The notes under the pieces are model-generated. The model ran no database searches and was not told where the DNA came from. It saw only the letters and a list, made by a program, of their open reading frames with translations. The position numbers were made by a program, and so were the translations under genes. This document shows, one piece after another, positions 4,081 through 15,693 of a stretch of 23,102 nucleotides of DNA. Where the stretch lies: positions 1 to 23,102 of IMG/VR virus record IMGVR_UViG_3300036909_000142; one strand, 5' to 3'. Position 1 is the stretch's first letter, and every line of letters begins with the position of its first letter. Source of the DNA: a virus.

Positions 4081-4210
4081 GTATTTTCGGGAACAACTAC
4101 CCCCCGTACGCAGAAAACCATTACAGAATAACACCTTACGGAAACTAAACCGCGAAAATAGCCTAAAACAGCCTGTTTGGTAATCTAGGTAATCGTAGCG
4201 AAAACCAACA

Positions 4211-4260
4211 AGTCAGCACAAGTCAGCACAAGTCAGCACAGGTCAGCACAAGTCAGCACG
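4211..4260 (+). repeat. Five tandem 10-bp repeats upstream of terS
   Basis: Five adjacent copies of AGTCAGCACA: three identical, the fourth beginning with G and the fifth ending with G. One copy per helical turn means a protein bound to each would sit on the same DNA face. Directly upstream of terS this resembles terminase recognition sites (pac or cosB-like) or iterons. A binding array for a regulator of the late promoter about 60 bp further on is the alternative. Confidence 0.75.
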
Positions 4261-12265: not shown

Positions 12266-12293
12266 TTGACGCGGCCGCCGCTCGCGTTATATT
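12266..12293 (+). promoter_or_regulatory. Strong sigma-70-like promoter
   Basis: TTGACG (12266-12271) and TATATT (12288-12293), each 5/6 to consensus, are 16 bp apart. Transcription would start near 12300, leaving a leader of about 190 nt before the next gene. That leader contains the interleaved inverted repeats and the short hexamer tract. This is one of the best promoters in the window and separates this unit from the morphogenesis operon. Confidence 0.65.
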
Positions 12294-12303
12294 TACGGGC
12301 AGT

Positions 12304-12393
12304 GAGCTTTGCGGGCTTCCCATAAACGACAATTCACGCCGCCGGTTTTTCATGCGCTCTCGGCCCGCAAAGCTCGCATGGAGGATCGGCGGC
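12304..12393 (+). promoter_or_regulatory. Leader with two interleaved inverted repeats
   Basis: GAGCTTTGCGGGC (12304-12316) pairs perfectly with GCCCGCAAAGCTC (12363-12375). GCCGCCG (12338-12344), inside that loop, pairs with CGGCGGC (12387-12393), outside it. The two helices cross, so they either form a pseudoknot or exclude each other. Each second-helix arm is followed by a T run (GGTTTTT at 12344-12350, CTTTTT at 12393-12398). This suits an attenuator or structured leader RNA. No protein-coding gene is supported in 12246-12491. Confidence 0.5.
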
Positions 12394-12404: not shown

Positions 12405-12452
12405 TGGCGATGTCTGTGGCCTTGGCAATGGCACTGGCACTGGCGATGGCGT
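12405..12452 (+). repeat. Short TGGCNN hexamer tract (8 units)
   Basis: Eight consecutive in-phase hexamers: TGGCGA, TGTCTG, TGGCCT, TGGCAA, TGGCAC, TGGCAC, TGGCGA, TGGCGT. The last ends 25 bp before the binding site of the gene at 12492. The unit and its type of variation are the same as in the long tract at 13119-13478, so the gene between them is bracketed by the same repeat. Confidence 0.85.
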
Positions 12453-12491
12453 TGTTTTTTTTCCTATCCCACTCTTGAAAGGACGTTTCAA

Positions 12492-13112
12492 ATGGAAGCT
12501 CGCGTAACAATTTCGATGACCAACTACATCGCGCACCCTTACTGGCCGGCGCGTAACCGCGTGATCGAGATCGAAAAAAAGTCCGGCGTCAACCGGCAAA
12601 AGTCGGACGAAAAGCGGCAGGCCGCGCTCAAAGCCGAGTGCGAGAAAGAGGGCTACACGCTCGCCCAATATGAGCAGTTCAAGATCGATGCGGCCGAGCA
12701 GTGGTATCGCCGTGAGGGCAAGATCATCATTCCGCGCCACCAACTGGCGGGCGCTTTCGTTCAGGCAATCGGCACGTCGCCCAAGGCCCTCCGCGGCGCG
12801 TTTGACAAAGACAACTTTCGCGCCTTGATTCAACTCGGCGACTTCGTGACCAACCGCACGAAAGCCGATGGAATGTTTTCCCGCTTCGCCAAACTGGAGG
12901 GCAGCAACCAGCGGAGTTTCCAGGAAAACGAGTACATCGGACGTTACCTGGACGTGGGCGAGCCGTTCGAGGCGACGGGCGTGATCGGCATTCCGAATCC
13001 GAAGCACGCCGACACCGTGAAGTCGCTCTTGTGCCACGTTGTTGAAATGATCGGCGTGGGAGCATCGCGGAAGATGGGATTCGGCCGCGGCGTAGTGAAA
13101 AGCTGGGACTGA
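12492..13112 (+). CDS. RAMP-like (Cas7-like) protein of unknown function
   Basis: A 206-residue protein with AAAGGA 8 nt before the ATG; a longer frame from 12309 would translate the hexamer tract and has no binding site. It opens with a beta strand (MEARVTISMT), then a Lys/Glu-rich helical insertion (residues 28-75). KIIIPRHQLAGAFVQ (77-91) sits where RAMP proteins have their helix after strand 1. The end is a predicted strand (FEATGVIGIP), a helix and the glycine-rich loop GVGASRKMGFGRG (188-200), the hallmark of Cas5/6/7-type RNA-binding folds. A phage family of unknown function shares this plan. No CRISPR array or cas gene is present. RNA binding is inferred from the fold-like pattern only. 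Confidence 0.5.
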   Translation: MEARVTISMTNYIAHPYWPARNRVIEIEKKSGVNRQKSDEKRQAALKAECEKEGYTLAQYEQFKIDAAEQWYRREGKIIIPRHQLAGAFVQAIGTSPKALRGAFDKDNFRALIQLGDFVTNRTKADGMFSRFAKLEGSNQRSFQENEYIGRYLDVGEPFEATGVIGIPNPKHADTVKSLLCHVVEMIGVGASRKMGFGRGVVKSWD

Positions 13113-13118
13113 AATCCT

Positions 13119-13478
13119 TGGCTCTGGCACTGGCCTTGGCCCTGGCAATGTCGCTGGCCCTGGCAATGTCGCTGGCCGTGGCACTGGCGGTGGCGATGGC
13201 AATGACTTAGCTGGTGGCGATGGCAATGGCACTGGCGATGGCATTGGCGATGACTTAGCTGGTGGCAGTGGCACTGGCAATGTCGCTGGCAATGGCCCTG
13301 GCGGTGGCGATGGCAATGACTTAGCTGGTGGCGATGGCTCTGGCACTGGCTTTGGCACTGGCTGTGGCGGTGACGATGACTTAGCTGCTGGCCCTGGCAA
13401 TGGCATTGGCGATGGCATTGGCCCTGGCGGTGGCGGTGACGATGACAGTGGCAATGTCGCTGGCAATGGCCTTGGCCG
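13119..13478 (+). repeat. Tract of 60 uninterrupted TGGCNN hexamers
   Basis: From 13119 to 13478 the sequence divides into exactly 60 hexamers with no insertion or deletion. Most are TGGCNN with the last two bases free. Variants are TGTCGC, TGACGA, TGACAG and the pair TGACTT-AGCTGG (C), which recurs at 13203, 13251, 13317 and 13377. A 41-nt stretch is repeated exactly at 13184-13224 and 13298-13338, 19 units apart. One plus frame reads Gly-X throughout without a stop but has no start codon; the Ala/Leu frame has four TAG stops. The flanks (13113-13118, 13479-13542) show no gene. It follows the RAMP-like stop by 6 nt. Confidence 0.95.
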
Positions 13479-13555: not shown

Positions 13556-14575
13556 ATGAAGTTGACATTGAAATGGATTGACGACCTACTGGCGGAGGCT
13601 GATTTTCGGGCAATGAATATTCCTTTTTCCGTGAAAGAGATTCGTTTTTCGCAAATCGACCTTTATGAATCGTGCCAAAACGGGGCGAGGCTTGGCGATC
13701 AGGTGGTTGCTGAACTGGTGTCCGATTATGCGCAGGCCATGCGCAATGGTGCTCCTTTTCTGAGAATGGCCGCCTATCTTGGAAAAGCCGGTTACGTCCT
13801 GACCTCGGGCGTGCAGCGAAGCTGTTCCTTCAAGGAGCTTATCGACGCCGGGGATATTTCAGGTGACCCGCTGATCGAGATTTACGCACTCCAGACCAGT
13901 GATAAGATGCTCATCGAGGGCATCACGCGATCCGCTAATGTCCCGCATGGAGGCCGGTCGAATCTTGGGGAGCGGATGTCCAACGCCGTACACATGGTGC
14001 GCGTGCTTGGCATGACGACTGTCGACGCTAGAAAACTTTTCATGGTGTCGGAGTCAGCCATTAACATGCGAATCAGGGTCGATGCTCTTCGCAAGAACCT
14101 TGGCGAGAAGGGTATTGATACGTCGCGGGTTCCAGCATCCACAATGGAATGTTTGGGCCAGATCGACAACGACGATCACGCATTTACTCAACTCGCCACA
14201 CTGGTCAGCCAACATGTGCCGAGCTGTTCGCGGGTCGATACGTTCGTTAAGCGAATCAAGAAGGCAAAGTCTGATGGCGACCGCGGTAAGGTCGTAAAGC
14301 AGATCGAAAGCGAACTTGCGGAAGAATCGCGAGAATTCAAAAACCGCAAGAAGGCCCGCATTACGGCGCCCAAGGCCCCATCTCGTCCGTGGCGAGACAA
14401 GTTCGTTCAGTCGCTATCGAAGCTGGCTGATTTTCTGGACTTCGGCCATGACGGCGAGGGATTCGACCGCCTCACTACCCTCCAGGTCGCGACCCAGGTC
14501 GATGAAAAGGCCGTGCGCGATTTATGGGCGCGGCTGGAACTTCGGATGTCGCTGGTATTGAAGAAAGGCTGGTGA
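13556..14575 (+). CDS. Divergent ParB-like protein with helix-turn-helix
   Basis: A 339-residue protein with AAAGGA 7 nt before the ATG. Residues about 27-112 look like a degenerate ParB N-terminal domain (EIRFSQIDLYESCQNGARLG, an LVSDYAQAMRNGAPF helix, YVLTSGVQRSCSFKELI). In the box usually reading DGxHR, GVQR takes its place. Residues about 120-178 are the stronger part: EGITRSANVPHGGRSNLGER, then a helix and LFMVSESAINMRIRVDALRK, as in the KorB/ParB HTH (A..AN..HG.R...). The remaining 160 residues are helical, with a Lys/Arg-rich stretch near 265. It probably binds DNA as a regulator or partition-like factor. By eye it is AT-richer than the structural genes around it, which suggests separate origin. 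Confidence 0.6.
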   Translation: MKLTLKWIDDLLAEADFRAMNIPFSVKEIRFSQIDLYESCQNGARLGDQVVAELVSDYAQAMRNGAPFLRMAAYLGKAGYVLTSGVQRSCSFKELIDAGDISGDPLIEIYALQTSDKMLIEGITRSANVPHGGRSNLGERMSNAVHMVRVLGMTTVDARKLFMVSESAINMRIRVDALRKNLGEKGIDTSRVPASTMECLGQIDNDDHAFTQLATLVSQHVPSCSRVDTFVKRIKKAKSDGDRGKVVKQIESELAEESREFKNRKKARITAPKAPSRPWRDKFVQSLSKLADFLDFGHDGEGFDRLTTLQVATQVDEKAVRDLWARLELRMSLVLKKGW

Positions 14576-14576
14576 C

Positions 14577-14972
14577 ATGGTCTGCAAGAAAATCCGCACG
14601 GTGTTTGCTACGCAACGCTTTCCGATGTACTCTCGGCAAGTGCTTGATTTTCTGGCGGACGGCCAATGGAAGGGCCACCAATATTTAGCGACACTTCTTT
14701 CGTTGGAGTGCCCACCAGAGTATGCCGCACGACACGCAAGAACGGCAAGCGGATATGGTCACGGCAGAATATCTAACGTGAACCTTCCGATGGATCAACT
14801 ACTCCAAAAAGGATACCGTAGTCTTGTTTCGCGCATGTTGTCACAGTTTTTTGTTTCTGGTTTGATTGAAAAGAAGAAACTTGACGGTCAGACCTATTAC
14901 CGCTTGACGCAGAAAGGAATCGCGGATCATGCAAAGCAAGAGGCTGCTAAAGCTCGACCTGTTGCGCCTTGA
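14577..14972 (+). CDS. Winged-helix-like small protein
   Basis: A 131-residue protein beginning 1 nt after the previous stop, with AAAGG 8 nt upstream. Residues 18-43 (YSRQVLDFLADGQWKGHQYL plus ATLLSL) look like the first helices of a winged-helix domain, and SQFFVSGLIEKKKLDGQTYY followed by RLTQKGIADH (89-118) looks like its recognition helix and wing, as in MarR-like or phage replication-organiser proteins. A loop of about 40 residues separates the halves. It overlaps the next gene by 44 bp. DNA binding is inferred; the target and family are not recognised. Confidence 0.6.
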   Translation: MVCKKIRTVFATQRFPMYSRQVLDFLADGQWKGHQYLATLLSLECPPEYAARHARTASGYGHGRISNVNLPMDQLLQKGYRSLVSRMLSQFFVSGLIEKKKLDGQTYYRLTQKGIADHAKQEAAKARPVAP

Positions 14973-15693
14973 CGGTGGGACGCAGCCGAGAACGGACATT
15001 GACCATACGGTGGTCGATGAATACTCCGACGCCTACGCGGCTGGCGCTAAGTTCCCGGCAGTTATAGTTTTCTTCGACGGAAAAGTCTATTGGCTATCGG
15101 ATGGCTTCCACCGCTGGTGGGCGGCCCGTAAAGCCGAGCGGAAAACGATCCTATGCGAAATCCGCAACGGCACCCAATTTGATGCCCAGTGGTTCTCGTA
15201 TTCCGCGAACCGAACGCACGGCCTGCACCGGGACAGCCGCGATAAAGTAAATGCCGTCCAGGCGGCGCTCTTGCACCCCAACGCCGCCAAGATGAGCGAC
15301 CGGATGATTGCCGAGCACGTCGGGGTTAGTAATCGCATGGTTACTAAATACCGCAGTGTACCAACTGTGAACCGTTCCCAGTTGACACAATCGGTAAGCC
15401 CGGCAAGCCGGGAGGGATTGGACGGAAAGCGACGTAGGCCACCCCGTCCGCGCGGTGGAAAGCCGGCAGAGCCAGTGTCGCCAATTGGCGACAACCTGCC
15501 CGTGGAAGAAGCCGAGGAAGAAACGATCCCAGATAATCCGATTCCGAAGCCGGAAAAATCCAAACTCTGTGGCGCGATGGAAGTTGCGATTCTAAAGTGC
15601 TGGAAATCCTTCGAGTCTTCCGATTCGTCTGTTGTGGCAGCAGTGCTGGAAAGCGTTGCCGAGCGAATCAGAAACGGGACAATAGCAGTCTAG
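14929..15693 (+). CDS. ParB-like nuclease-domain protein with HTH
   Basis: A 254-residue protein. The ParB domain spans about residues 6-100: LDLLRLDGGTQPRTDIDHTV, EYSDAYAAGAKFPAVIVFFD, YWLSDGFHRWWAARKAERKT (the DGxHR box is intact), then WFSYSANRTHGLHRDSRDKV. A HTH follows at about 105-142 (NAVQAALLHPNAAKMSDRMI, EHVGVSNRMVTKYR). After it comes a Pro/Arg/Glu-rich linker and a helical end (EVAILKCWKSFESSDSSVVA). This resembles ParB-HTH proteins common in mobile elements, thought to act as regulators or in DNA partition. Start at the ATG at 14929, with GAAAGGA 10 nt before. A terminator follows its stop, so it is the last gene of the unit. Confidence 0.8.
   Translation: MQSKRLLKLDLLRLDGGTQPRTDIDHTVVDEYSDAYAAGAKFPAVIVFFDGKVYWLSDGFHRWWAARKAERKTILCEIRNGTQFDAQWFSYSANRTHGLHRDSRDKVNAVQAALLHPNAAKMSDRMIAEHVGVSNRMVTKYRSVPTVNRSQLTQSVSPASREGLDGKRRRPPRPRGGKPAEPVSPIGDNLPVEEAEEETIPDNPIPKPEKSKLCGAMEVAILKCWKSFESSDSSVVAAVLESVAERIRNGTIAV

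Follow-up and report, generated by a model that had tools for sequence, protein, structure and literature searches.

Introduction

The described system most like the locus analyzed here is VIPR, reported in a 2026 preprint (PMC13142463; bioRxiv 2026.04.26.720920), whose main text describes a small phage RAMP protein, Vipr, together with vrRNAs made up of 9 to 16 YNNGG units, in which the NN dinucleotides specify DNA under a rule that skips 1 nt. According to the same text, the system is used against competing phages, falls into seven types, and includes a vap accessory gene and an invariable structured 3' tail on the vrRNA; the preprint presents it as RNA guidance of a noncontiguous kind, possibly older than CRISPR. 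TIGR-Tas, as described in PMC12045711, resembles the present locus in having a phage-associated repeat array that serves as guides beside one protein; that description also sets it apart, in that it was mined from the guide-interaction domain of Cas9 and not from a RAMP, and in that its array layout is unlike contiguous hexamers.

The DNA studied here, called the window throughout, is a stretch of 23,102 nt of viral DNA (IMG/VR record IMGVR_UViG_3300036909_000142, positions 1 to 23,102) in which the gene for a small protein lies between two tracts of hexanucleotide repeats. The Cas7 family of class 1 CRISPR systems (Csm3, Cmr4/Cmr6, type VII Cas7, and Cas7-11), in which Cas7 covers 6 nt per subunit, shares its fold and G-loop with this protein; the window differs in encoding a single small protein whose sequence matches to CRISPR families are marginal. 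No repeat-spacer array was found among the tandem repeats, and no other cas gene among the scanned proteins, of this 23-kb fragment. Judging from sequence and predicted structure, we put at roughly 70% the probability that the locus encodes a VIPR-like system, carried by a phage and guided by hexanucleotide-repeat RNA.

Organization of the locus

The gene and both flanking tracts lie where the original prediction placed them:

12405..12452, + strand, upstream tract of 8 TGNCNN hexamers (candidate guide RNA segment)
12492..13112, + strand, gene for a RAMP (Cas7-fold, Vipr-like) protein of 206 aa (AlphaFold2 pLDDT 90.4, PDB matches, Vipr profile match)
13119..13208, + strand, candidate guide block 1, 15 hexamers
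13209..13214, + strand, separator AGCTGG (the AGCT unit also recurs in T-type relatives)
13215..13256, + strand, candidate guide block 2, 7 hexamers, then AGCTGG at 13257-13262
13263..13322, + strand, candidate guide block 3, 10 hexamers, then AGCTGG at 13323-13328
13329..13382, + strand, candidate guide block 4, 9 hexamers, then AGCTGC at 13383-13388
13389..13478, + strand, candidate guide block 5, 15 hexamers

The window holds 43 copies of the motif TGGCNNTGGC, where dinucleotide shuffles predict 1.47. All eight upstream units fit TGNCNN (seven TGGC and one TGTC), and the 60 in-phase downstream units (13119-13478) consist of 45 exact TGGCNN units, 7 TGAC units, 4 TGTC units, and 4 units that read AGCTGG or AGCTGC. 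The counts and phase originally given, 8 and 60 in-phase hexamers, therefore hold, and the description of all of them as TGGCNN was slightly overstated, because 15 of the 60 downstream units are TGAC, TGTC, or AGCTGG/AGCTGC. The AGCT units split the downstream tract into blocks of 15, 7, 10, 9, and 15 hexamers. This tract has stop codons in two of its three forward frames; its Gly-X frame is open.

The RAMP protein

The proposed identity of the protein as a RAMP is confirmed at the level of its predicted fold, because the best solved structures among the matches listed for the model are CRISPR RAMPs: Csm3, Cmr, type VII Cas7, and Cas7-11. The AlphaFold2 model, for which the input was a 12-sequence family alignment, has a pLDDT of 90.4 and a pTM of 0.79. 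Foldseek matched it to solved CRISPR RAMPs at an E value of 3e-6, and the best solved match, Csm3, aligned over 141 residues at 3.9 Å with a Z score of 12.6; a comparison with viral models returned a phage protein annotated as "Cas system-associated RAMP superfamily" (E value, 3.7e-7). The glycine-rich G-loop that had been noted in the protein is present as GVGASRKMGFGRG. At the sequence level, Pfam and PADLOC gave only marginal matches to Cas6/Cmr6, those of the window protein falling at the glycine-rich loop; its match to the Cas6 family was below the cutoff (13.8 bits versus 25) and covered the G-loop stretch only.

Linkage of the gene and the tracts in relatives

Twenty relatives were found, 19 of them in viral contigs and 1 in a metagenome-assembled genome (MAG) of the Actinomycetes; a tblastn search of INPHARED and PLSDB gave no matches. 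Hexamers consistently accompany the gene, as expected under the original prediction: the best repeat period is 6 in all 21 family members, and strong period-6 tracts adjoin the gene in 20 of the 21, the tract being weak in the remaining one (L146). In all 19 whole contigs tested, the gene has a tract of 5 or more units on its own strand, 4 to 187 nt away (Fisher's test, P = 6e-9, for a sample that includes the close relatives L142 and L143, which are not independent). For comparison, loci from 23 phages that are related to L143 and L144 by a structural gene, and that are not known to carry the RAMP gene (it went undetected in 15 of their contigs), contain only 7 short runs, of at least 6 units, in 689 kb. 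A blind search of IMG/VR for (TGGCNN)6 independently recovered one relative, L110, with tracts on both sides of the gene. The TGACTTAGCT pattern gave unrelated coding matches in other viral contigs, except for L134, which is the same contig as L009.

The repeat unit varies by clade, being TGGCNN in close relatives (53 to 66% identity to the window protein) and CGCCNN in distant ones (29 to 38%), and both units fit YGNCNN. The RAMP fold and the hexamer tracts of the relatives together appear to uphold the proposed tie between a RAMP and 6-nt repeats without a CRISPR array.

Two side observations concern repeats elsewhere. The sole member from a cellular genome, in the Actinomycetes MAG, has a large array (L172, 9633-11278) in which CGCCCG+T breaks recur between blocks. 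Many phage contigs (viral loci L010 to L129) also carry long TGGCNN tracts with an open Gly-X frame (GYGSGD type).

Evolution of the arrays

The near-identical phages L142 and L143 allowed 160 hexamer pairs to be aligned, which differ at positions 1 to 6 by 5.6, 1.9, 8.7, 1.9, 28.7, and 25.6%. Their genes diverge by 3.6%, with changes of 0.4, 0.4, and 9.8% at the three codon positions, and the gene is, by this pattern, under purifying selection. Turnover of the NN dinucleotides (26 to 29%) thus exceeds that of third codon positions (9.8%), and the fixed G and C stay nearly constant (1.9%), a contrast expected of guides that can be swapped. The NN changes are clustered in blocks, with 32 switches where 70 ± 5.5 were expected from shuffling, and whole hexamers have been gained or lost. 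This pattern fits an exchange of guide segments along a constant scaffold better than drift acting evenly on the array.

Relationship to VIPR

A putative vipr gene of SUSP1 was located by its layout, with GGTNN pentamers around the gene, and five relatives of it were gathered; each of these six SUSP1-clade Vipr loci is laid out much like the window locus but has a best period of 5. When the profile of the window family was compared with the Vipr profile by hhalign, the two aligned over 146 columns, including the C-terminal G-loop, with a probability of 93.6 and an E value of 2e-7, whereas an unrelated phage family used as a negative control gave a probability of 0.1. By profile comparison, then, the window protein is a homologue of Vipr.

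The likeness extends beyond this profile homology. In both systems, a small phage-encoded RAMP with an RRM core and a G-loop is flanked by tandem repeats in which fixed bases alternate with hypervariable NN dinucleotides, and several guide-length segments are present without a CRISPR array; VIPR has 9 to 16 repeats per vrRNA, and the putative guide segments of the window are the five blocks and the 8-unit upstream tract listed above. The differences lie in the unit, which is a 6-nt TGGCNN or CGCCNN here and a 5-nt YNNGG in VIPR, in the short AGCT separators with no detectable structured tail, and in hexamer NNs that give no codon-register signal. No structured 3' tail was found in the window, where blocks with their separators fold no better than shuffled sequences; the window instead has a structured leader, placed 5' of the upstream tract. 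Rfam, hammerheads included, gave no match at the gathering score in ten relatives and, at the window locus, nothing better than a match at chance level.

We therefore regard the family, as read from its sequences, as a VIPR-like relative, a variant rather than a member of the characterized VIPR type, because the pentamer unit was not found in it. The main text of the preprint mentions "a related consensus" (fig. S17), and the hexamer type may already be covered there (PMC13142463).

Searches for targets and a decoding rule

Searches for targets of an NN code with skips of 0 to 4, carried out in the family viruses and the related-phage loci, gave results equal to those of shuffled controls, and two exact 1-nt-skip patterns had no match in IMG/VR. 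Four guides from the Actinomycetes array (L172) had no convincing match in related genomes; 24 three-mismatch matches of L172 guides (6 in the control) were rejected as targets, as they look like codon-like composition.

A codon-register test, which assumes that targets resemble phage coding DNA, gave a z of 2.76 (P = 0.010) for 28 pentamer guides, a small control set, as the published VIPR rule predicts. For 96 hexamer guides, the same test gave z values of -0.1 to -1.5, compared with 6.5 or more in simulations of coding targets, and the other hexamer registers likewise showed no codon-register signal, skips of 0 to 4 being covered in all. Either the hexamer rule differs, or the targets are noncoding or of another composition, or the NNs are not a code. 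The guide reading is weakest at this point, where targets were not found and the codon-register signal is missing.

Alternative explanations and proposed function

The purpose originally suggested for the tracts was a filament or an autoregulatory RNP, in which the RAMP coats its own transcript and the hexamer RNA is a scaffold with unconstrained NNs rather than a guide. This would suit a Cas7-fold protein beside a 6-nt ruler, and it is in keeping with the results of the target searches and the codon-register test. We nevertheless consider it unlikely, and it appears less well supported than a guide RNA array: the NNs are replaced in blocks that lie between identical blocks, and faster than third codon positions; the arrays are split by AGCT separators into guide-length segments; and the homologous Vipr is described as RNA guided (PMC13142463). 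It is more improbable still that the tracts act as DNA, as iterated operator, replication, or recombination sites bound by the RAMP or by neighboring ParB or HTH proteins, even though DNA-binding-like genes lie nearby (ParB-like in the window and a small HTH_17-like one, below the cutoff, in L142) and neither strand of the L138 tract has an open frame. The RAMP is an RNA-binding fold, the tract follows the strand of the gene in all 19 whole contigs tested, the unit changes with the protein clade, and the NNs are replaced in unit-scale blocks, all of which argue against DNA sites.

We give very little credence to the view that the tracts encode low-complexity Gly-X, Ala-X, or Pro-X peptides and that their closeness to the gene is incidental. 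TGGCNN and CGCCNN hexamers can never yield a forward stop codon, most (TGGCNN)6 matches in IMG/VR are open in the Gly-X frame, as is the window tract, and some tracts of L142 to L144 lie in frame as Pro-[S/T/A] linkers; yet the frame that would be read differs among members (Ala-X in L142d and Pro-X in L145), and conservation is at the level of the hexamer. Coding does not account for the T-type tracts taken together, because stop codons interrupt two of the three forward frames of the window tract and L138 lacks any open frame. Some C-type (CGCCNN) tracts may double as coding sequence, because CGCCNN can encode Pro-[S/T/A] and tracts of L142 to L144 are in frame: in these phages, two hexamer tracts form Pro-rich stretches, within an ORF for a RecT-family recombinase and within another ORF (e.g., L144 5100-5269), as though guides had been concealed in protein-coding DNA.

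Under the preferred reading of an RNA-guided system, for which we infer the strand, processing, and binding of the RNA, the hexamer array would be transcribed with or near the RAMP gene, and its RNA would be cut or trimmed at the AGCT separators to give guide RNAs of about 7 to 15 hexamers. One RAMP monomer would sit on each hexamer, holding the fixed TGGC (or CGCC) and presenting the NN for pairing, and the resulting RNP might bind and silence DNA from rival phages or from other mobile elements, which is what VIPR is reported to do. The more specific idea that the family is a hexanucleotide branch of its own among VIPR-like systems, with TGGCNN and CGCCNN alphabets that track the protein clades, a decoding rule other than the 1-nt skip, and a position bridging the 5-nt VIPR unit and the 6-nt Cas7 footprint, is put forward tentatively, at slightly less than even odds. 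A hexamer-guide relative of VIPR would mean that neither unit length nor scaffold sequence is fixed in such systems; the hexamer family would be a second code to solve, would link VIPR to the 6-nt footprint of Cas7, and would open to experiment the way in which RAMP monomers set the periodicity of guides.

Promoter, leader, and neighboring genes

Three further features flank the gene and its tracts:

12266..12293, + strand, sigma-70-like promoter candidate, TTGACG-16-TATATT (10/12 matches, weak)
12304..12393, + strand, structured leader with two interleaved inverted repeats, pseudoknot-like (putative function)
13556..14575, + strand, next gene, 339 aa, without a Pfam or PHROG match

The strong promoter posited upstream of the locus was not established, because the one 10/12 site compares with 0.6 sites of that quality expected by chance. 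The leader is immediately 5' of the 8-hexamer tract; its repeats pair 12304-12316 with 12363-12375 (a perfect 13 bp) and 12338-12356 with 12375-12393, and its RNA folds with a z of -2.5. No conserved partner gene of the vap accessory type was identified among the neighbors inspected in the window and in L142; by position alone, the 339-aa gene is a possible accessory gene. Elsewhere, the window carries two ParB-like genes (1135-1953 and 14929-15693), a PAPS-reductase-like gene (2090-2998), and, at 4208-4259, 5.2 tandem copies of a 10-nt unit, ACAAGTCAGC.
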